Source: Nitzschia sp. pyKryTriq1
Taxonomy: Eukaryota; Bacillariophyta; Bacillariophyceae; Bacillariales; Bacillariaceae
Reading direction: 5' to 3'
Assembly (NCBI GenBank): GCA_956465555.1
Contig: OY101119.1
Location: forward strand, 1,054,001-1,118,000
Length of the DNA: 64,000 nucleotides
Shown: piece by piece, positions 12,027-53,584 of the stretch
How the letters are laid out: each line of letters starts with the position of its first letter
How positions within the stretch are numbered: position 1 is the first letter of the stretch
The notes under the pieces: generated by a model
Told to the model about the DNA's origin: nothing
Databases searched by the model: none
What the model saw: only the letters and a program-made list of their open reading frames with translations
Position numbers and translations under genes: made by a program

Positions 12027-12690
12027 CGTGGTTTGAATGAGGACGACGACTCATCGATTGTAATGAAAAGGTGAGAAGAGAGATTTCATGTTGGGCGTTG
12101 TTGCGATGATGGGCCCATCATTACTTCCTGTTTCCTGAAGACGGAAGGAGATGGTCTTCGGAATTTCAGGGTGGAGAAGATCAAACTGATGAAAACTTCC
12201 GGCACCAGATGGGGGCATATTCAAAATCTCAAAAGATACTATTTTACTTAATGTTTTCGCGAGCAATCAATCTTTTGCTGCATTGTGGATATTATTATTA
12301 TTTCCAATATTACGTCATCCAACTGTTCGGTTTTGTTTCTTTCTGCAGGAAACTGCCTTCGAGCGATCGGGAGGACGAGCACCCGTCATGAATGATGTTG
12401 CCGGGTTTTACGTCAAGCACGTGCGTTCGAGGTCGATGTCGGGTTCGCGACAGTATTCGCCAACTTCGCGTTCCGCCCGCCGCCGCCGCCGGCCGCCCCA
12501 TTATTCCCGCCCGCCCGCCGGAGATCAGAGCGACAAATTCGATTCGAAACCTGGAACCGAACCGGAGATCGAAAAATGATCTCTTAGCCATCCATTTTTT
12601 TATTCTCAAAGACAATGGTCGTCGGTCGTCGACAAGTAAGTCGGCTAGCCTGGATCATTCCTATTGCTGAGATGGCAGTTTTGGGATAGA
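12027..12690. other. Divergent intergenic region (HAD / oxygenase)
   Basis: No gene is supported. A GC-rich run of CCGCCG and CCCGCC words (12475-12530) lies in the middle, and an A/T-rich ATATTATTATTA stretch at 12288-12312. Overlapping open frames on both strands here are low-complexity Arg/Pro/Ala sequence and are not credible. Confidence 0.45.
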
Positions 12691-13824
12691 ATGAAGTGGG
12701 GAGCTCTCAATATCATCACCTCCTTTGTTAGTATCAATCCTGAGGAAGGACGTCCCTTGAAACGAGTTCGACAAACTTTGGTTGCTAAGCAGCACGTCGT
12801 ATCATCAGCCGACGGAACGAATCATCACTTCTACCGCCAACATCCCGTCATGACGACCACTTCCTTGACGGAGCAACAAAAGCCAACACCGTCGTTCCAG
12901 CCCAAAAATGACAAGAAGAATGTTGCATCCCGTGGTGAATATGGAGGGGACAAGGATGATCTAATATATAAAAGCGGAATTCCTACCCTTCGTTCTTCGG
13001 CCCATCGAGTCAAATTTGATGTCAAACGACGAAAGCATGATCCTAAACCCAAAGATCGAAACGGAAACGAAACAACGACGACATGGCTACCAGAATCGTT
13101 ATTAGTGGAAGATGTTTTTGATTACGATCTTGAAAAATATGATCTGCGAGGTGCGATTATAACATTGCTGAAGAGCTGCGACGAATCTATTGTCGGCACC
13201 TTTGAAACGCATGCAGATGGAAGAGAGTCGCGCTTGGAGGACTTTCGAGTGCCGGTACCATCCGTTTGGCGGTCTGTCAATGGAGGTTGTTGTGAGAGTG
13301 CCCAGAAATACTTGTCCGATGCCGTAGCCTCGAACGCCGAATTTTTGACAGTATTTGAACGGTTCGTCGACGAAGTCGCCCTTCCGTATTTCAAAAAGAG
13401 ACTCCTTGCCACGGGAGCTATCGAGAGCGACACCCCAATAACTTTTTACTATCAACACCCACCGACTATGCGGTTGCAACCAGGACCGGGGTGGGCCAAA
13501 GTAAAGCCCCATAATGATGCCGAGTACGGTCACCAGAACGGAGAGCTAAATTTTTGGGTGCCGCTTACGGATCGAATGGTGACGGGAGTGGATCTTTGGA
13601 GTGAGACTACGTTTCGAGCCGACGACTATCATCCAGTCGAGGCAAAGATTGGACAAGGCATTTCTTTTCATGGATCATCCTGCCGGCACTACGTCAACGC
13701 GAATGAATCAAACAATACTAGGGTGAGCCTGGACTTTCGAATTGGTGTGCAAGGATTCTTTGACCCATTTTGGCAAATGAAAGGGACCACGGACGATCAT
13801 GGACGGCGAGAAGTTACAATATAA
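12691..13824 (+). CDS. StrG-like 2-oxoglutarate/Fe(II)-type oxygenase
   Basis: The 377-residue product has a double-stranded beta-helix domain in its second half. An HxD iron site is seen in PHNDAEYGHQNGELNFWVP (H274, D276), a distal His in CRHYVNANES (H333) and an arginine that would bind 2-oxoglutarate in TRVSLDFRI (R344). The block NGELNFWVPLTD...GQGISFHGSSCRHYV..N resembles StrG from streptomycin gene clusters and related bacterial and algal proteins of unknown chemistry. The first ~120 residues are basic and low in complexity. The reaction, probably a hydroxylation or desaturation, is inferred. I start at the first in-frame ATG. A possible upstream mini-exon (12615-12635, then a 43-bp intron) keeps frame, but the intron would be shorter than any other here. 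Confidence 0.7.
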   Translation: MKWGALNIITSFVSINPEEGRPLKRVRQTLVAKQHVVSSADGTNHHFYRQHPVMTTTSLTEQQKPTPSFQPKNDKKNVASRGEYGGDKDDLIYKSGIPTLRSSAHRVKFDVKRRKHDPKPKDRNGNETTTTWLPESLLVEDVFDYDLEKYDLRGAIITLLKSCDESIVGTFETHADGRESRLEDFRVPVPSVWRSVNGGCCESAQKYLSDAVASNAEFLTVFERFVDEVALPYFKKRLLATGAIESDTPITFYYQHPPTMRLQPGPGWAKVKPHNDAEYGHQNGELNFWVPLTDRMVTGVDLWSETTFRADDYHPVEAKIGQGISFHGSSCRHYVNANESNNTRVSLDFRIGVQGFFDPFWQMKGTTDDHGRREVTI

Positions 13825-17745: not shown

Positions 17746-19497
17746 ATGAACGATCAACTGCTATCGCATCTGGAGACTTTTGACTCGGATGAAGAATTCT
17801 CTGAGAGCCCCGCGCTCCGAGTGGAAGAACATGTGGGGCCAGTCCTCCATGAGATGATGAATCCATTCGACATGCACCTGCTCAAGCTCAAGAATATCTG
17901 TCGACGGTTCGCCAGACCGGCAACCTGCAAAGAAGCCGTCATCAAGTTTTTCTGGCTGCTGCCAGTAGGGATTTTATTGGGGGACTACATTGGGCTCTTG
18001 TTAAGCTTGAGCTTGTCAACGATTGGGCTACTTGTCAGTATGGTGCAGCCAGAGCCTCATCATCACCATGAAGAAATGACTGGCCATGAGTATTCCATGC
18101 ACGTCCAGGAAATCAGCTTTTCCAATAAAAGAAGGGGCGTTGATGAGGTACACAGTATCACGAAGAAGCAAGTGCAAGATTACCGGAAGGAAATTTCGAG
18201 GTTACTAGGGCTGATTGGGGCTCCAGCGTTGGATTGGAGGGACCAGGACACCACTCTGGACGACGACGCTCGAGGAATTTCGTCCGAGGCGGCAAAGTTG
18301 ATGGTCAAGTTCTTGGAGGCACACGTTCAATTATTGCTCACAGTCGACGAGGCTTATCGTTGGCTTCAAGTCAGTGCTAGTTTGCATCTGGGACTCGGAC
18401 CTCGATCGCAATGCGTCGAACGAGTGGAACGTGCATCAATTGCCCGAGAATTTCGAAATGGACGACGCCAAAGTATCGGTGGATCTTTGATCTCGGATGG
18501 AATCCGAGATTCTGCCAAGGAACCTCAGCGTGGGTTGTGCAAGTCTGTATTGTCTCTTTCGATGGTTCGGCAACACCTTGCCAAGGCCATGGTAGATCAG
18601 TCATATTCAATACTACAAGTCTGGCACCGCAGCCAAGAGGATCTGGATGTTTCTCAAGAGATCTCTAATGCAGAACCGTTAGATATCCCTGACGTCGTCG
18701 ACTTGCTGTGGATCAAGGGAGCACGACAACAGCTGGCTGTTGTTTTGAGCGATACAGTGAATGCCTACTGCACCACTCGCACACTCGCCATTCTCACTGT
18801 TGATGGCGACGTTCAATCTGTACTAGAAGCTTCCATGTCGAATGCTCGAAATGCCCGGGAGTATTTGCTGTGTAATCTCTTGTTGGGGAAACGCCGAGCG
18901 ACCAACCCTCTCCCCAATCCAAACGATCCTTTATTGTTGTCGCTCATGCAGTATCGTGAACAATTGGATGCTCTGTCGGGAGCAATATGGTCATGTCAAC
19001 AATACACAAACACCGGGCTGTTATCCAATGAGCATAGTGATGATGGTGCGCGCACCGAGTGGTGGGCCAAAGTCCAGCAACTGGGTGAAACCTGCCGTGC
19101 TATGGAATCGGAGATTGGGCAGCGTTTTTTCGCCGTTCTGCCTCGAGATGGGCACGATCATGACGAGGAGCAATCCACTGGTCAAGATGAAGCAAAAGTA
19201 GGAGAATCGGCACAAGGTGAATACCAAACGTACCAGAGAGAGGATGATGGCTGGGATAGCCCATCCGAAAAGAAAACGGAGGATCGAAAACTACTCCCAA
19301 CGAAAACGCTTGTATTTAAGGGTCACGGGGCCAAACAGGAACGACCCAAGCACTCAGCAATTGCGAGTAAAAGGGGAGGGGGGAAAGGGGAAGGGTCACT
19401 TATTATTGCTGCCTTACCACCAAGGGATACCGTTTCGGAACGGCTAATGATTCGAGAATTACATAATCGAATTTCTGTGATGAGGCCGCCGGAAGAG

Positions 19498-19528
<31 letters not shown>

Positions 19529-19683
19529 TAGAAACGGAGGCAGCCAAGGCCGCGCGACTGGGTCGGGCCCCAGTCGCACCTCTATTCCTTGGAGCCTCTG
19601 GGTCTCTATTGAGTGAATTAAAGCAAATGATACCAGCATCTTCCAAAGGGGGGGAAGAAGAGCAGGTTCTAGTAGGTGAGTAA
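17746..19683 (+). CDS. Vezatin/Inp2-like membrane protein (tentative)
   Basis: The 645-residue intronless product has an acidic N-terminus, one hydrophobic region at ~65-100 (FFWLLPVGILLGDYIGLLLSLSLSTIGLLVSM) that could be a hairpin or a single helix, then a long helical domain. The layout, with DEAYRWLQVSASLHLGLGPR, ARQQLAVVLSDTVN and a late VFKGHGAKQ...LIRELHNRIS-type block, recalls the vezatin/Inp2 family, membrane receptors for myosins. I infer this from memory of the family pattern, not from strict motifs. A His/Glu run (HHHHEE) follows the membrane segment, and a run of ten or so Asp (GAC repeats, 19498-19527) sits near the C-terminus. An alternative is an unrelated lineage-specific membrane protein. 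Confidence 0.5.
19498..19527 (+). repeat. GAC trinucleotide repeat coding for poly-Asp
   Basis: A perfect run of GAC codons inside the vezatin-like gene codes for about ten Asp residues. Confidence 0.9.
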
Positions 19684-20281
19684 GATACACGAAAAAGTCG
19701 ATTCTGTTGTGGTCACACCCACGGTGATTTACTTTACGTGTAGTCTACTCGCATTCAAAACATTTTTATTTGTTCTCCTCGGAGATTAGTAGAAACAGAT
19801 AGAGGCGCAAGCGCAATAAAGAAATGATGGTCCCACTTTTCTTACTCTACTACTATGCTAGAATAGTTTACTCGTACAGTAGTTGTAGTTGTGTCGCTCT
19901 CCGCTCTCGTACTCGTATGAAAGTTTGCGTGCAAGTAGACTACCGGTACGCCGGTGGACTACTTCTTGTTCGGGTACGAGTGAGTACCAGGTACCAGTAC
20001 TTGTAGCGAGAAAGATCGATGGGTGGTCGGCACGAAGTCTGTCAGTTTTCATTTCGGGTACCCAGTTGTCGTAGGTTTCTACGTATCGGGCGAGGCGGCA
20101 TCGCACCCACGCATCGGCATTGGTCCACCCGCCGTGACCGTGGTTTTGAGATTTCTGGATCTTGATGAAGTGACCCAACTCTCCCGCAATTTTATAATGT
20201 TCTCGCCATTGTTTCCATTGTTTCTTCTAATGCATCGTCATCGTCGCATTATTTACAGTACTGGAACTACTGCTGACGACC
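19684..20281. other. Intergenic region before the oxygenase-HD gene
   Basis: No gene is supported. A GTAC-rich tract lies at 19936-20004. The remainder should hold the promoter of the fusion gene. Confidence 0.45.
19936..20004. repeat. GTAC-rich palindromic tract
   Basis: It contains TACCGGTACGCCGGT and GTACCAGGTACCAGTAC, the same self-complementary words found in other gaps. Confidence 0.7.
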
Positions 20282-22162
20282 ATGAGCTATACTAACGCCA
20301 ACGCTAGTACGAATACGAACACTGAAACTCGTCCTTTGTCCGTCCCCATCATTTCCTTGATTTCCCCGACGGTTGTCGACGAGATCGATCGAGCGTGTTC
20401 GACGGTCGGTGCATTTGTTCTCATCGACCACGGAATTCCCACCGAACTGTTGGATGCCGTGCTCCAGACGGGGCATTCCTTTTTCGAGCTCCCCGAGCAA
20501 GTTAAGGAAAAGTACAATCTTCAAAAGTACGGCGCCAAATGGCGAGGCTACATGCCGGTCGGAGGAGAACGCTCAGTCCACGGCACGCTCGTGGACTACA
20601 AAGAAGGCCTGTACATGGGCGACGAGCACTCTCCGGAAGATCCCAAGGTCAAAGCTTCTATGCCCACCTTTGGAAGCAACGTCTATGCGGACGCGGAACT
20701 AGGCGAGATGCGACCACTCTTCAACGAGTATCACCAACGCATGAAGACACTGGGAGACACGATGATGGACACTCTGTCGCAGGCACTAGGACTCGAGACG
20801 TCGTACCTGCAGACGCACGTCACCAAACACGACCCGGTGATCTTGCCACGAATGTTTCGGTATCTTCCGCAGGCCCCTGACAGTCACGAAACGCAGTGGG
20901 GCATTGGAAGACATTCCGACTACGGCTTGTGGACGATGATTCTGACGGATCAACCCGGTCTCGAAATTCAAATCGAGGCAACGAAAGAGTGGGTTCCAGT
21001 GCCCCTAGTCGAGCACGGCATCATTATGAATGTGGGAGATGTCTTGGACCGTCTCACTTCGGGGCGATATATTTCACCCTATCACCGGGCGCGCAATAAC
21101 TCCTTCAAGAAACATCGACTATCCTTGCCCTTCTTCTATGATCCGGCCTGGGATGCCAATCTCTTGACCTTGCCTCTTGAGGAGGCCGCCGCGGTGAAAT
21201 TGAATCCACCACCACGCTGGGAACATACCAAGATTACTCGAGATCTCGATGGCTCCGTGGCCTATTCTGAATTTCTCGCCAAAAAGGTGGCCAAGGTCTT
21301 TCCGGATTTGGTCCCGCCAAGCTACTGGAAATCCCTTTCCAGTACGTCGGCCCCTTCCACTCGTCATGCTCTTATCGTGGAGAGCCCGGATATTGTAGTG
21401 ACGCAGCGAGTTGTCAAGGAACTTCAAGACTTTTATGAGGACAATCCACAAATCAAAGCCTCCCACGGCTGGTCTCATGTTCAGGCCGTCTATCACCATG
21501 CTTGTGAGGCAGTCATTTGTCACAAACCACCCTTGATTTCACAAACCGCCATGGAAATCCAATGTGCAGCCCTTTTGCACGATGTGGACGATCACAAGTA
21601 TTTTCCAGCGCACGAAGATTACGAAAATGCACGGGAGATTCTCGAGCGTGCCAACATACCCTCCAAAAGTGTCGAGACCATTCTGTACATGATTTCTTTG
21701 GTGAGCTGTTCGGAAAATGGCAACCATGTACCTTTGGAGATTCAAGAGTCTGGAAACTATCACTTGTTGATTCCCCGATGGTCCGATCGTCTCGAAGCCG
21801 TCGGTAAGGTGGGAGTCGTTCGTTGCTTTCAATACAATCAAGAACGACGCCGTCCTTTGGCGTCGCCTCGCTCCCCGCGAGCACAATCCCGGGAAGAACT
21901 CTGGGAATTGGCGACACCCCAACGATTTGAAGCCTATCAAGAAACCGGAAATTCGGACGATATGATCTCCCATTATTATGACAAACTCTTACATATTGCT
22001 TGTCCTCCCAAAGAGTTGGTCCGCAATTCGTATTTGGAACGCATGGCCGAAGAGTCCTCGAAAGAGTTGGTAGAAGTATGTCTGCGATTTGGAAAGACGG
22101 GACAAGTCGATGAAGACTTTATTCGGTGCCTTGCCGAAGAGTTGAATATGGAACAAGTATAG
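20282..22162 (+). CDS. Isopenicillin-N-synthase-like oxygenase fused to a YpgQ/YedJ-type HD phosphohydrolase
   Basis: This 626-residue intronless protein joins two enzymes. Residues ~20-340 are a 2-oxoglutarate/Fe(II) oxygenase of the IPNS/DOXC type: VPIISLI at the start, GAFVLIDHGIP, iron ligands H211 and D213 in GRHSDYG and H268 in YISPYHRA, and the R279-x-S281 cosubstrate pair in HRLSLPFFYDP. Residues ~360-600 are an HD domain: H399 in HGWSHVQAVYHHA, H433-D434 in CAALLHDVDDHKY, and D502 in RWSDRLEAVGKVGVVRCFQY, followed by SHYYDKLL. The order matches bacterial YpgQ/YedJ, metal-dependent phosphohydrolases reported to act on nucleotides. All predicted metal ligands are kept in both halves, so both may be active. 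There is no targeting leader, so it is probably cytosolic. Substrates are unknown. Confidence 0.88.
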   Translation: MSYTNANASTNTNTETRPLSVPIISLISPTVVDEIDRACSTVGAFVLIDHGIPTELLDAVLQTGHSFFELPEQVKEKYNLQKYGAKWRGYMPVGGERSVHGTLVDYKEGLYMGDEHSPEDPKVKASMPTFGSNVYADAELGEMRPLFNEYHQRMKTLGDTMMDTLSQALGLETSYLQTHVTKHDPVILPRMFRYLPQAPDSHETQWGIGRHSDYGLWTMILTDQPGLEIQIEATKEWVPVPLVEHGIIMNVGDVLDRLTSGRYISPYHRARNNSFKKHRLSLPFFYDPAWDANLLTLPLEEAAAVKLNPPPRWEHTKITRDLDGSVAYSEFLAKKVAKVFPDLVPPSYWKSLSSTSAPSTRHALIVESPDIVVTQRVVKELQDFYEDNPQIKASHGWSHVQAVYHHACEAVICHKPPLISQTAMEIQCAALLHDVDDHKYFPAHEDYENAREILERANIPSKSVETILYMISLVSCSENGNHVPLEIQESGNYHLLIPRWSDRLEAVGKVGVVRCFQYNQERRRPLASPRSPRAQSREELWELATPQRFEAYQETGNSDDMISHYYDKLLHIACPPKELVRNSYLERMAEESSKELVEVCLRFGKTGQVDEDFIRCLAEELNMEQV

Positions 22163-22870
22163 TGACGGCACTGGACTGGACTGGACTGGACTACCGTCGT
22201 CGTGTATCAATTAAAGTGAACGGGGCACCACTCTCACTCGTTCTTGTTGAGGGGTGATTCATGGATGGATGGAGTGTATTCTATTCTTCAGCTTCTCCTG
22301 TTCGATGCAAAGTGTCATCAAGTACCCAAAATATAGACTAGCCTAGATATAGATTTTCGAGCTAGCTACGTGTGTACTCGTAGTATACTATAATCCATCT
22401 ACTAGCGCTTGCTACTCGCTAGAGCTCTACTAGAATGAGTAAAAGGACACTGTGTCAACTAAGATCTGTCTACCGGTACAGTATTACTCTACTCTAGAGT
22501 CTGAGTACCTGGTACGCAACATTAGTTGAACGGGACTACTGACTCTCCGTCGTCGTCTTCGAGTTGTCGGAAGAAGAATTCATCATCGAATTTTGTTGTC
22601 GACTGATTTGACTGAATTTTTTCTGACTGCGACGGCCCTGCGCAGGCGGCCGGCACGCCTCTCGTTGCTGTTCGCTGATGTAACAAGCAAACAGCCAAAA
22701 AAACAAAAGCCCCCCTCCCCCCTCGACCATGAGCACATTCCATCCGAGTCCTTGTTGCGCTTGCATTGTTTCATCGACCTTGGACATCACGACGGCACCG
22801 CTCCGAATCCCAACAAAAGTGAAGCGTGTGTGCGTGCACAATCCTTGACGCATTCGTATATTCGTTCAAA
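22163..22870. other. Intergenic region before Nup85
   Basis: No gene is supported. A five-base CTGGA repeat occurs four times at 22170-22191, just after the stop of the fusion gene. CTCTAGAG-type and GTAC words occur at 22470-22515. In-frame ATG 22826 upstream of Nup85 is discussed with that gene. Confidence 0.45.
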
Positions 22871-25456
22871 ATGACGATGCCCGAAAAGAAAATACGCGCC
22901 GTAGCATGGGACCCAAAATCCCCCGCCACACTGATGATTCCATCAGTGGACCCCACTTCGGGGGGTGACGTTCAACAAATGGACACGTTTCTCTCCCATG
23001 ATGGTGTCGGTTGCAATGCGCACGAGACCTCTGCTTTAATGGAACTGTTGAATGCTCGCGATGCCTATATAGAAAGCGATGCTGGAGATGCAAGCGCCGT
23101 TCGATCCGTATCGCGAGCGTACCGCAAGGCGCTGGCCGATTGTGTCCGGGGCTGGGAGGCGGACGTGGCTGCGGAAGCAGAAAATGCCGCCACCGCCGAG
23201 GACATGGATGAGGAGGGCAAGGAGCAAGAGAATTTAGAGCTGTTGAAGATAGCCTATGCTGTCACGCACTTGTCGGAAACTTTCCTTTTGACGCCCGCCA
23301 ATGAATCCTTCATGGTGGACTACTATGAAAACACGTCGAGTCTACCAGGAGCTGTAACGGCAGAAACGGTTCGTTACTTGAGACTCCATCACATGGCTGA
23401 CCCTACAGCCTTTGTCGATGACGCAATCATGGAAGATCTAGAAAACTCCATGCAGCCAGATCAACTTGATGGTGGAGAACCCTACTGGAGTTTAGTTGAG
23501 AGCTATCTCGTAAGAGGTTGCTTGAATGATGCCTGGGCCTTGCTAAGTCGTCACTCCCTCCGACGACGCGCTGCAGAAGCGCTGACATTTGAGGGGCTTG
23601 ATGAGTATCAAGCCGCGACACTGGCACAGGATCAAGAAGGATTTCGGGCCCTGGAAGCACTCTTGCTCTCGGCACCTTTGCCAGGCGGACGAACGGACGA
23701 GTTTGATGCCGACTTTGAGTTGGACGAATACGTCGGCCGTGAGGAAGAGCTGTTAGAGGGCGTGCCGCCATCTGCTTTTCGTCTGTGGGAATCCAACACG
23801 AACAATCGCAGCTCGGGTGATTTCCCAGTCAGCTTTCAGGCGAATGCGGCCCTTCAAGTGTATCAGTCATGGCAACAAGCTGTCAAAGCACTGCCAGAGG
23901 TTCAGAGCCTCAAACGCCGGATCCCTCAACTCCAACGAATTTTTGCCATTTTGACGGGAGATTTTACTGGACTTGAATTTGAATCGTGGGCCGAGGAACT
24001 CTGTGCCGAGCTCATCTACAAGTTGCCAAACATTCGATTAGTAGACATGCACGTCAGAGCATCGCGTATCATGCAAAAGTATGATGCATCTGAAGGTCCA
24101 GGAGGGTTTGATGAGGTGATTCTTAGCGTCATGAAGGGCAACGCAGGTCGCGTGGTGGAAGTAATGCACGAATTGGGTGGAGGGAGTGGAGCTGCGCTTC
24201 CTGCTGTCATGGTACGTTGTCGTCCGCTTTGGCGGCTGTCTAGTGTTAGCCTCGACCGCTTTGAAACTAACCGTTGCCACTTTTTATCTGCAAAGACTTC
24301 TCTCCTTTGCAATCTGCTTGACGACTCTCGAATTATGCCAAAATTGTCGACCGAATACTCGATTCGGACAGAACTCTTGCTCAGTGCTGCCTTTGCAATC
24401 CGATCGTCCTTTGCCATCGAAGGGCATCCGGACGTTGGAACTCGCCTCGTCGTTCGACTTCTTCTTCCTCATATCAAAGTCGACAGTGACTTGAGAATCA
24501 CGGCCAATATGGTGGATACCCTGGAACATCATTTTCCGCAGACGGATGCGGAAGCCAATTCTTTGCTGGATATGTGTCGGAAATTGGTCGAGCGTAAGAA
24601 TACTCGCGTGTTGGATGGGTGTGTGAGTATCGCTCTGGCGCGCTATCGATATTTTCTCGATGATGCACGCCCTGGAGGTGCGGTGCATTGGCTTCTGACG
24701 GGGATGGACTTGGAAGCCTTGGCGCTTTACGGTGCCAAACGAACGGGTACTTGGCAGCAGGCCCTCGCCACAAGTGTATGCTACCGGGTGTTGGTGACAT
24801 TCTGTATGGAGACGTCAGAGTCTCTCCTCAAAGGATTGCTTGGAGAGGGAGAAGGGGTTTCCATCCTCTATGCACGGGGAAAAGAAATGGTGGTGGCCTG
24901 CGAGGAGTCAGAGGTTGCTTCCTACATTACAGCTGTGAAAGTACTGGAGTATGTTGTGACAATGGCAGGAGCCGTCGCGGAACGCAAGGATGACGCACTC
25001 GTGGCTAGTTGTATCATTTCCTGTTTGGAAGAGCGTACGAACGAAGAAGACGACGGGGTTGTTTCATGCTTGGCAAGGTCATCTATGCACTGGGATCTTA
25101 TTCGACTTGCCAAGGTCATTATTGGTCGCAATTCGGAACGGGAAAAAGTAGAAGAAATGCATCTGTTTACGGCTTCCTTTGACGTTCGTGGAATGCAGGT
25201 TCTTCTGGAGAAGTTGACTATTATCACTGCTGTACTCGAGATGGAGGGCCAACCTTCCTCTTCGGAAGATATTCAACAGATTCGACTGGCTTTTGCGGAA
25301 GGTCTGATGCGGGCTTTTGTCGCTGAAAATGCTGCAAAAAGGTTTGCTTCCAAACACACATCAATCGTTTCAGTGGAGGGAGTTTACGCCGCAGATCTGG
25401 GCAAAGTGAGCCGAGAAAAGCAAGAACTGGTGGTTCAAAATATGCTAGACTTTTAA
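22871..25456 (+). CDS. NUP85: Nucleoporin Nup85 (Nup107-160/Y complex)
   Basis: Nup85 is a scaffold subunit of the Y complex of the nuclear pore. The match runs end to end with animal Nup85: the N-terminal blade that completes the Seh1 propeller (KIRAVAWDPKSPATLMIP), SVSRAYRKALADCVRGW, ITHLSET-like AYAVTHLSETFLLTP, the crown helices YWSLVESYLVRGCLNDAWALLSRHS, FESWAEELCAELIYKLPNI, and a long alpha-helical tail. An intron at 24212-24295 (GTACGT donor, TGCAAAG acceptor) is 84 bp, a multiple of three, with no in-frame stop; I remove it because the 28 residues it would encode break a family helix and the joined text ALPAVMTSLLCNLLDD fits. I start at MTMPEKK; an in-frame ATG at 22826 would add 15 residues. 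Confidence 0.85.
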   Translation: MTMPEKKIRAVAWDPKSPATLMIPSVDPTSGGDVQQMDTFLSHDGVGCNAHETSALMELLNARDAYIESDAGDASAVRSVSRAYRKALADCVRGWEADVAAEAENAATAEDMDEEGKEQENLELLKIAYAVTHLSETFLLTPANESFMVDYYENTSSLPGAVTAETVRYLRLHHMADPTAFVDDAIMEDLENSMQPDQLDGGEPYWSLVESYLVRGCLNDAWALLSRHSLRRRAAEALTFEGLDEYQAATLAQDQEGFRALEALLLSAPLPGGRTDEFDADFELDEYVGREEELLEGVPPSAFRLWESNTNNRSSGDFPVSFQANAALQVYQSWQQAVKALPEVQSLKRRIPQLQRIFAILTGDFTGLEFESWAEELCAELIYKLPNIRLVDMHVRASRIMQKYDASEGPGGFDEVILSVMKGNAGRVVEVMHELGGGSGAALPAVMVRCRPLWRLSSVSLDRFETNRCHFLSAKTSLLCNLLDDSRIMPKLSTEYSIRTELLLSAAFAIRSSFAIEGHPDVGTRLVVRLLLPHIKVDSDLRITANMVDTLEHHFPQTDAEANSLLDMCRKLVERKNTRVLDGCVSIALARYRYFLDDARPGGAVHWLLTGMDLEALALYGAKRTGTWQQALATSVCYRVLVTFCMETSESLLKGLLGEGEGVSILYARGKEMVVACEESEVASYITAVKVLEYVVTMAGAVAERKDDALVASCIISCLEERTNEEDDGVVSCLARSSMHWDLIRLAKVIIGRNSEREKVEEMHLFTASFDVRGMQVLLEKLTIITAVLEMEGQPSSSEDIQQIRLAFAEGLMRAFVAENAAKRFASKHTSIVSVEGVYAADLGKVSREKQELVVQNMLDF

Positions 25457-25575: not shown

Positions 25576-25989
25576 TTAATCCTTCTTGACAGTGACGATA
25601 AGAGGACCAACATTGTCCCCAGTGGCCTCGTTGTGCTTCACGTGTGTCGCTATTTCCAACAACAACAAGAAAATAATGTTGTTAGTCTCCTGACATTTCC
25701 GGGAATACAAGACGTACAAAAAATACACCACAACCAGCAATCACTACGCACCATCGCACAGAGGAAAGGTTCCCGAAAGCCAACAACGGCAGTAGACCTT
25801 CTTCCCCTTCTCGATCTCGTCCATCGTCGCAACCTTCGGGCTGTCAAGGTCGACTTTCAAGTTAATCTTGCCTTCACCTTCCATTGGCTCGTAGTCGCCA
25901 GCGGCAAGACGAGTCTGGACATGGTTGCTCGGGGCAACGGTGAAAGCAGTAGCTTGGCAAATGAGTAGGGAGGTAGCGATAAACTTCAT
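25576..25989 (-). CDS. Plastid-targeted CDGSH iron-sulfur domain protein
   Basis: Exons 25989-25752 and 25649-25576 flank a 102-bp GT-AG intron; the product is 103 residues. It opens with a signal peptide and an ASAFAP-like site (MKFIATSLLICQATAFTVAPS), so plastid import is likely. The domain reads [40 protein letters not shown]; the two CxC cysteines, the third cysteine and the histidine that hold a 2Fe-2S cluster are present. With the only canonical splice junctions I can find, the usual Gly of the CDGxH motif is Ala. CDGSH proteins move electrons or clusters. An open frame continues upstream to 26394, but that stretch has no family match and lies in a shared promoter. Confidence 0.8.
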
Positions 25990-26417
25990 CTTGGTCGAAC
26001 AGTAATGCCGGATAAATAACACAATTTGGGGAATGTTGTGAGGTCTGATGACTTCGCTTGTTTCTTTACCTTGCTCTCTCTGTCGCTTGATGGGTGGTGA
26101 TTGATGGCGATGATTGTCGTGCGCCGATCTCGAAGTCAATCTTCTTTGTTCCTGCTGTGTCCTGTGGATGACGCACGCGTGAAACGGATCTTTCCTTTTA
26201 GTCCAATTAATCAATAGCATTTGCGGTTTGCGGTAATATCCACGAACACAATCCGGGATTGAATTTGGATCTGGGATTTTTGAATTTGGAGATTTGGGGT
26301 TGGGGAAACCGAAGCGGCAGAAAGCAGAACCCTGTTGCCTCTTGGCATCACCCCAGCGGGCACCGAGCCCACAAAAGAGGCTTCCATTCTCCATTCAACA
26401 AAGAACAACGTGCTATC
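25990..26417. other. Divergent promoter region (CDGSH protein / HNH-like protein)
   Basis: Two genes diverge from this 428-bp gap, so it should hold both promoters. No gene is supported inside, though both flanking frames stay open into it. Confidence 0.5.
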
Positions 26418-52213: not shown

Positions 52214-53584
52214 CTATAAGTTCATCTCTATTTCATACTTCTCTGCTTTCGAAACGAGATGGCACGCCCTGACGACGTTTTGGTAGCGTGAAGTGATGGC
52301 TTCGCAATCATGGTCATTGAACATTGCGGAAGTACTGTCGTGATTAATAATGGTGGCTTGATCCAGCAAGACCTGATGTTGTTCCCCCGTATTTGCAGTG
52401 GCCTTTGCCACACTTTCGAGCGTATCTAGCAAGTGACATGAAACGGCACAGTTATCGCGCGCTGCTTGTCGTACTTGCTCGACAGCTGCACATACCAAAC
52501 CCTTGTATTCTGTAACGGATTTGATGACGCGTATATGGTCTTCTCCGTCGCGTAGAACTGACGCAGGCAGCGGCCTCGCAAAGACCGACTCTAGCGTTGC
52601 ACCGAGGTAATCTATGCAATCAATTGCTGTAAACGGATCATTAATGCCAGGAGAGAGTGCTCTCAGACAGACTTCCACAAGTTGACGTATGCCATATTCA
52701 AAGTCTTGTTCTGGTGTGCGCTGGAATCCAATATAGATACATTTTTGTACCGCGTGAATTAGGGCTTTGTCATTTTCGTCACCACCTTGAATGACTCGTA
52801 CGGCTGTTCGTCGTGACGTGATGAACCATCCCGAGCGACACACGACCCAAAGAAGAACGTCATACCGATGGGCGATCTGTGTCAAATTTTCATAGTCAAT
52901 CGCTTGGATGTATCCGTCCTTTCTGGAGCATATTGCCCATCCCAGGTCGTCTGGTGGCTCGGGTAGTCGTTCTTGCTGACCAGCATCAGGGCAGGGGAAT
53001 ACGCTAGCAATAGTTTCTTGTATGCCTTTGTAGGCGTCCATTAGAACTTGTTCTTCTTGAATATTGATAAGCACATGCTGAATAAAGTAGATAAAGAAGA
53101 ATAAACTCGCAATCGCCAGCAGCATGGCAACTATCGATGACAATTGTGGCACAAACTCTACTCCGGTTTCAGGTTCGGTACGCGGTCCTCGAATAATGAA
53201 AAGACAATAGACAAATGTGCCCATGAGAACTCCTAGGCATAGCTGACTGGGACGATCCTTCATGAAATTCCGCAGCAAGCGTGGACCGAATTGTTGTGAC
53301 GCCAATGTCATGGTCACCATGATACTCGAAAACGCTGTTGCCGCGAGAGACAGTGTCGATGAGGCGATTGTCGATAATAAGGATTGAGCACTTGCAACCG
53401 ACCAAATCTTCAGAGCAGGAGACTTATCCAACAGATTATCACCATAGTCAGTGTCCACGAAGAGTGTTAGCTGAGAGAGTACAACGGCGACAATCACACC
53501 TGCCGCTGGCAAAGTCCATGCCGAAGCTTTGATCTTTTCTGTATGATGACTCAGCCATGTCTTTATCGACTTTAGTTTGAGCAT
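52214..53584 (-). CDS. DUF2254 predicted membrane protein, bacterial type
   Basis: The 456-residue intronless product matches the DUF2254 family of bacterial inner-membrane proteins along its whole length. It has four hydrophobic segments: ~25-45 (WTLPAAGVIVAVVLSQLTLFV), ~75-95, ~112-132 (QLCLGVLMGTFVYCLFII) and ~148-172 (LSSIVAMLLAIASLFFFIYFIQHVL). Between and after them are the family blocks SSIMVTMTLASQQFGPRLLRNFMKDRPSQL, RKDGYIQAIDYENL, GFQRTPEQDFEYGIRQLVEVCLRALSPGINDPFTAIDCIDYLGA. The function is unknown; a channel or transporter role has been guessed. No leader for organelles is seen. The lack of introns and the bacterial match suggest transfer from bacteria. It lies next to the fold-back element. 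Confidence 0.85.
   Translation of the reverse strand: MLKLKSIKTWLSHHTEKIKASAWTLPAAGVIVAVVLSQLTLFVDTDYGDNLLDKSPALKIWSVASAQSLLSTIASSTLSLAATAFSSIMVTMTLASQQFGPRLLRNFMKDRPSQLCLGVLMGTFVYCLFIIRGPRTEPETGVEFVPQLSSIVAMLLAIASLFFFIYFIQHVLINIQEEQVLMDAYKGIQETIASVFPCPDAGQQERLPEPPDDLGWAICSRKDGYIQAIDYENLTQIAHRYDVLLWVVCRSGWFITSRRTAVRVIQGGDENDKALIHAVQKCIYIGFQRTPEQDFEYGIRQLVEVCLRALSPGINDPFTAIDCIDYLGATLESVFARPLPASVLRDGEDHIRVIKSVTEYKGLVCAAVEQVRQAARDNCAVSCHLLDTLESVAKATANTGEQHQVLLDQATIINHDSTSAMFNDHDCEAITSRYQNVVRACHLVSKAEKYEIEMNL

Follow-up and report, generated by a model that had tools for sequence, protein, structure and literature searches.

A single open reading frame of Nitzschia sp. pyKryTriq1 joins a predicted PaIPNS-like 2-oxoglutarate oxygenase to a predicted YpgQ/YedJ-type HD hydrolase

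A stretch of 64,000 nucleotides of Nitzschia sp. pyKryTriq1 DNA (hereafter the window) contains one open reading frame in which a predicted PaIPNS-like Fe(II)/2-oxoglutarate oxygenase is followed by a predicted HD hydrolase of the YpgQ/YedJ family. The frame runs from ATG 20282 to TAG 22160–22162 on the plus strand with no internal stop over its 626 codons in the standard code, and the closest in-frame stop upstream of the ATG is at 20228, with no ATG in between. At the stop-trinucleotide frequency of the window, the chance of an open frame of this length is approximately 4e-10 per start, and the frame had the highest coding score among the six frames in 30 of 30 sliding windows. Matches to an oxygenase and to an HD protein were both recovered within it, which confirmed the fused frame reported in the original prediction; the residues named there for the two sites (H211, D213, H268, R279, S281, H399, H433, D434, and D502) were all in place. 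The gene is probably a real fusion joining two enzymes with sites that are predicted from sequence to be active. We favour a bifunctional protein in which both predicted sites work, and we put the probability of this reading, whether the substrates are related or not, at roughly 0.6. The features of the frame are listed in Table 1.

Table 1 Features of the oxygenase–HD frame in window coordinates
Feature	Position	Strand	Remark
Oxygenase–HD fusion ORF	20282..22162	+	626 aa, single open frame
PaIPNS-like Fe(II)/2OG oxygenase domain (predicted)	20363..21310	+	residues 28–343
H211-x-D213, two iron ligands (predicted)	20912..20920	+	both invariant in 15-row alignment A1
H268, third iron ligand (predicted)	21083..21085	+	invariant in 15-row alignment A1
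R279-L-S281, R-x-S motif	21116..21124	+	S281 aligns with PaIPNS S270
K335-V-A-K338-V-F-P341	21284..21304	+	K335 and K338 align with PaIPNS K321 and K324
Linker, residues 344–367	21311..21382	+	right edge inferred from helix 369–387; no in-frame Met
YpgQ/YedJ-type HD hydrolase domain (predicted)	21383..22162	+	about residues 368–626; sequence match 392–616
H395 (YpgQ H25 position) and H399 (metal ligand, YpgQ H29)	21464..21478	+	via relatives
H433-D434, metal ligands (YpgQ H58-D59)	21578..21583	+	via relatives
R499-W500-S501-D502; metal ligand D502 = YpgQ D124	21776..21787	+	changed context
R514 and Y518 (YpgQ R136 and F140 positions)	21821..21835	+	via relatives
H564 (YpgQ H158 position)	21971..21973	+	via relatives

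The next long frame downstream of the fusion (22826–25456, plus strand) matched a Nup85-like nucleoporin in Pfam (7e-15). Elsewhere in the window, a frame on the minus strand (52214–53584) gave a nearly full-length match to a DUF2254 membrane protein (1.2e-108), and another minus-strand frame (25744–26394) carries a C-terminal CDGSH-type iron-sulphur motif that scored 28.5 bits against a Pfam cut-off of 29.5 bits. Two long plus-strand frames, 12664–13824 and 17746–19683, the latter with an aspartate run near its end, had no Pfam match. PPR, EamA, and glutamyl-tRNA reductase matches were also present in the window; with the Nup85 match, they are consistent with nuclear DNA of a photosynthetic eukaryote.

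In the N-terminal half, Pfam recognized DIOX_N at residues 28–124 (6.4e-22) and 2OG-FeII_Oxy at residues 192–288 (2e-17). The R-x-S motif of such oxygenases binds 2-oxoglutarate, and its R279 and S281 are invariant across the 15 rows of alignment A1. Among the best 60 of 71 matches in a sequence search of the PDB, 9ovh (Anc357) came first at 6e-63 and 6jyv (PaIPNS) second at 9e-57, whereas isopenicillin N synthase itself, which converts ACV without 2-oxoglutarate, was far weaker (about 1e-13). An AlphaFold model of residues 1–360 (pLDDT 80.4 and pTM 0.83, from 23 alignment rows) placed 9ovh and 6jyv jointly first in Foldseek (1e-31). An isopenicillin-N-synthase-like oxygenase had been proposed for this half; the Fe(II)/2-oxoglutarate domain was upheld, but its closest natural counterpart among these matches is PaIPNS and not the true synthase. 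In PHROGs, the oxygenase part matched phrog_30382 (2.4e-12), which is annotated as function unknown.

The two leading matches differ in kind. Anc357 is not natural but a reconstructed ancestor resurrected in a study of ethylene-forming enzymes, and the accessible part of PMC12329707 reports that it formed almost no ethylene (0.6 nmol). The same part of that source describes 6jyv as PaIPNS of PAO1, which binds 2-oxoglutarate, with a reported charge-transfer band at roughly 530 nm, and turns it over uncoupled to succinate; in the assays described there it was not an ethylene-forming enzyme, and neither its function nor its substrate is known. A lead toward purine catabolism, in which 6jyv was taken for PA0147, a gene near purine genes, was dropped since the molecule name of 6jyv, "probable iron/ascorbate oxidoreductase," is the label of PA4191. 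PA4191 has 334 amino acids, whereas the fusion adds an HD domain at the C-terminus.

PaIPNS shares the iron ligands of the fusion's oxygenase and groups with it in a tree at 99/98, apart from the viral 2-oxoglutarate oxygenases compared. The tree had 38 rows: 14 bacterial sequences, 21 from viral contigs, PaIPNS and SpoC (both fragments), and the fusion protein. The bacterial rows were taken from 12 of 14 fetched regions (L036 and L038 were excluded for broken frames) and from L001 and L002; L003 was unused. The grouping with PaIPNS appeared in 100% of 200 bootstrap trees, one SpoC row not being counted. The branch of the fusion's oxygenase is long (2.02), and its placement was flagged as unsure by the tree tool. 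Moreover, of the 104 columns with a conservation of at least 90% among the 14 bacterial relatives, the fusion keeps 68 and changes 36, including E210R, which adjoins the iron ligand H211; these changes and the long branch count against the preferred reading. The pocket residues that are named for PaIPNS in the accessible part of PMC12329707 are identical in the fusion at 9 of 10 positions (G95, E96, Y194, S281, P283, K335, V336, K338, and V339), the exception being L91, which is replaced by R97. The position of Arg316 in the L-Arg site of the ethylene-forming enzyme (K324 in PaIPNS) is occupied by a lysine in the fusion, K338.

Viral 2-oxoglutarate oxygenases of this general type appear to be frequent. 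Among the 80 viral-contig loci (L052–L131) listed for the pattern H-T-D-[YF]-G, 75 hold a frame with a match to the oxygenase half (E ≤1e-4), with about 24 to 37% identity and, in most cases, a length of 279 to 325 amino acids; the loci with no matching frame are L077, L081, L111, L128, and L131. One viral contig carries two such oxygenase genes (L065:549-1628 and L065:2807-3802), which are sisters in the tree near the PaIPNS-like group. A W-R-G-Y oxygenase motif, searched as one DNA pattern, had no match in viral contigs.

The C-terminal half was searched alone with phmmer against the PDB and matched 2qgs (6e-13, residues 392–603), and hhalign against six YpgQ/YedJ-type sequences gave 98.6% and 8e-16 over residues 393–616. 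The two halves were folded separately; in the full-length alignment (A4), HD rows seemed to be placed onto the oxygenase half. The predicted model of the HD half was modest (pLDDT 67.1 and pTM 0.69, from 10 alignment rows), and the first 16 chains found with it in Foldseek all belonged to the YpgQ/YedJ family (E 8e-5 to 2.4e-2, eight of them at ≤0.001); these YpgQ/YedJ entries also answered the YpgQ/YedJ profile search. We set the start of the domain near residue 368 on account of a predicted helix at residues 369–387, where bacterial members carry an N-terminal stretch. No Pfam HD family was listed at a limit of E 10, at which the HMMER filters drop most matches above 0.1. NCBIfam gave no match for the whole protein and the YedJ model at 0.093, far below its cut-off, for the HD half; PADLOC gave no match for the fusion protein, and PHROGs matched the HD part to phrog_3921 (2.5e-4), annotated as function unknown. 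Queried by itself against plasmid records (tblastn, 1e-5), the HD half gave no match, whereas a YedJ query matched 182 records, which indicates that this half is divergent.

The HD half resembles the HD (d)NTP pyrophosphohydrolases YpgQ (Bacillus subtilis) and YedJ (Escherichia coli) in fold family, in the positions of the metal ligands, and in those of H25, R136, and H158. The accessible part of PMC8177086 gives H29, H58, D59, and D124 as the metal ligands of YpgQ and H25, R136, F140, and H158 as its proposed substrate contacts. All four ligands of the H...HD...D pattern are kept in the fusion (H399, H433, D434, and D502), H395, R514, and H564 are identical to the YpgQ contacts, and the F140 position is Y518, a Tyr also found in four of the six other rows of alignment A3; these equivalences were mapped through relatives and spacing, YpgQ itself standing outside the alignment. 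The fusion differs from its YpgQ/YedJ relatives in the attached oxygenase, in several short insertions, and in the residues before the last ligand, where QDA is replaced by RWS (residues 499–501). QDA is kept in nine of the nine other sequences of alignment A6, a conservation that applies to the set compared and not to the family as an established defining trait. Residue 396 is Gly in the fusion and Asp in all nine relatives compared (D396G). The HD activity might be changed or weakened by D396G and by the RWS replacement next to D502. The RWS-D motif, searched as two DNA patterns, had no match in viral contigs, which gave no support for its occurrence in giant viruses. Taking the two halves together, we consider it reasonably likely that both sites are active.

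Other systems also partner a 2-oxoglutarate oxygenase with an HD-domain protein. PhnY/PhnZ and TmpA/TmpB are known tandems of a 2-oxoglutarate hydroxylase and an HD-domain enzyme, and the fusion might be such a pair on one chain, in which a phosphonate would be hydroxylated by the oxygenase and the product cleaved by an HD di-iron oxygenase. However, the enzymes of those pairs are described as being in tandem, and their HD partner is a six-ligand di-iron oxygenase. Six ligands in the order H...HD...H...H...D are required in HD oxygenases and also in YqeK, where H83 and H109 follow H50; the di-iron oxygenases PhnZ, TmpB, and MIOX thus have two extra His ligands between the HD motif and the last Asp. 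Between the HD motif and D502, the fusion has His at 438, 444, 482, and 494, but going by the spacing in YqeK none of them falls where the first extra ligand would lie, as the region between 444 and 482 has no His. The sequence and fold searches point to the mononuclear YpgQ family, and a phosphonate pair is highly improbable.

The junction of the two halves bears on whether they form one protein. The significant HD sequence match begins only at residue 392, and 48 codons separate it from the end of the oxygenase match at residue 343, or approximately 24 when the HD domain is taken to begin at its predicted N-terminal helix. A linker of 24 codons stays open by chance with a probability of 0.44 at the window's stop-trinucleotide frequency and is uninformative alone. 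Its coding score is slightly negative (−0.09 per codon over 24 codons; −0.02 for codons 341–380). In addition, the third-position GC content is 0.63 in the first part of the frame and only 0.49 thereafter (p 0.0002 by permutation), whereas the 12 other long frames picked in the window all differ by ≤0.06 (p of at least about 0.2). The likeliest break is at codon 305, codon 357 is nearly equal, and codons 187 to 405 lie within two log units. We read this step as the joining of two evolutionary histories; a joining artefact would fit it too. Such an artefact, in which an error of sequencing or assembly united two adjacent genes or the first exon of an HD gene was missed, would also agree with the low-scoring linker and with the finding of no relative joined in the same way in the prokaryote, plasmid, and viral collections. 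By contrast, the 48 codons (about 24 with the helix) leave little room for a gene end, a promoter, and a start, and the two halves share one reading frame. The translation holds no in-frame Met between residues 249 and 424, which leaves the HD half without a visible start of its own ahead of H395 and H399, and the four out-of-frame ATGs ahead of the HD ligands each open an ORF of ≤33 amino acids. We regard it as very likely that the oxygenase and HD halves are one single protein; an artefact is unlikely and keeps its small share because the GC step is compatible with it.

We searched for fused relatives in prokaryote, plasmid, and viral DNA, collections that say little on a eukaryotic fusion. 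Among prokaryote contigs, 22 stretches gave one relative with the oxygenase only. Three scans of viral contigs found no fused relative, one of them giving a single distant oxygenase. The peptide-pattern scans among these searches detect close relatives only. Plasmids gave 272 matching records, in none of which one place covered 80% of the protein, and phages gave one record with the oxygenase half only. Within 58 genomes of one phylum, 42 gave a match, which in 14 cases had an E value of 5.2e-51 or lower, but no match extended past residue 387. No paper title on an oxygenase–HD pairing was found in the open-access literature, outside which most subscription journals lie, and this agrees with the earlier statement that no described enzyme is known to have this pairing. 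The fusion is probably a real and unusual combination of two familiar enzyme types, and none of the collections searched contained it.

Bacterial relatives of the oxygenase were examined for a partner at 17 loci (L001–L003 and L025–L038), with flanks of ≤9 kb, often shorter at contig ends. The oxygenase frame was recovered at 15 of them (not at L003 and L036). None of the frames picked in the 17 loci matched the HD half (blastp at 1e-3, which is coarse for a divergent query), and the only two non-oxygenase families common to at least three loci were both limited to L025, L026, and L029. A profile built from two rows, the HD half and YedJ, had matches in 2 of 56 genomes from the one phylum. Thirteen genomes of this phylum that gave a strong oxygenase match were also covered by the search for YpgQ-type proteins, and only one of them (G037) had a YpgQ-type match. 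The lack of a widely shared neighbour or a nearby HD-matching frame, the rarity of genomes with both proteins, and the unlike third-position GC of the halves all favour a fusion fixed by chance, in which two enzymes with unrelated substrates merely share a promoter and a chain. The retention of both sets of catalytic residues, however, suggests some benefit of joining. A chance fusion competes with the idea of a shared pathway and not with that of a single protein, and we give it a real chance, short of even odds. The same neighbourhood and genome results offer nothing specific for a modified-nucleobase or damage-repair substrate, which had been suggested originally; the accompanying idea of two steps, oxidation and then removal of phosphate, is possible.

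For the bifunctional protein, the following mechanism may be proposed. One gene would give a two-domain enzyme, of which the N-terminal domain would bind Fe(II) and 2-oxoglutarate and use O2 to oxidise a small substrate, and the C-terminal domain would bind a divalent metal (Mn in YpgQ) and hydrolyse a nucleotide. This nucleotide would most likely be a (d)NTP, or else a cyclic nucleotide, as reported for a plant relative. According to the accessible part of PMC6692503, Arabidopsis CN-PDE1 (At1g17330) is a cGMP phosphodiesterase that its authors place in the YpgQ/YedJ orthologue family, a family with reported members in every major lineage of eukaryotes, SAR among them; the role of the bacterial YpgQ-type hydrolases in the cell is termed unclear there. 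Since CN-PDE1 belongs to this family, both (d)NTPs and cyclic nucleotides are candidate substrates for the HD half; the likeness of CN-PDE1 to the HD half is this family assignment, not a comparison of its sequence, and the results in that part of PMC6692503 do not mention an oxygenase domain. We tentatively propose that the two domains may serve a common pathway, with related substrates that would probably derive from nucleotides.

Membership of the cGMP-hydrolysing CN-PDE1 and of SAR relatives in the HD family (PMC6692503, in its accessible part) is also consistent with a sensor–effector protein, in which the oxygenase would sense O2, iron, or 2-oxoglutarate (the carbon–nitrogen state) and control an HD phosphodiesterase that lowers a cyclic-nucleotide or nucleotide pool. 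Against this, the catalytic residues of the oxygenase are all kept, which gives no indication that catalysis was lost for sensing; no such sensor was found among paper titles in the open-access literature, and the RWS-D change is left without an explanation. We regard a sensor–effector protein as doubtful. Equally speculative is a single-chain algal switch, in which an oxygenase dependent on 2-oxoglutarate, O2, and iron would control or feed a (cyclic-)nucleotide hydrolase with a new RWS-D variant; if true, it would link the carbon–nitrogen or oxygen state to nucleotide signalling. The bifunctional protein of our preferred reading would matter for both enzyme families, which are poorly understood: their natural fusion hints that their substrates or regulation meet and offers one protein for testing both, and, if conserved, it could reveal what either family does.
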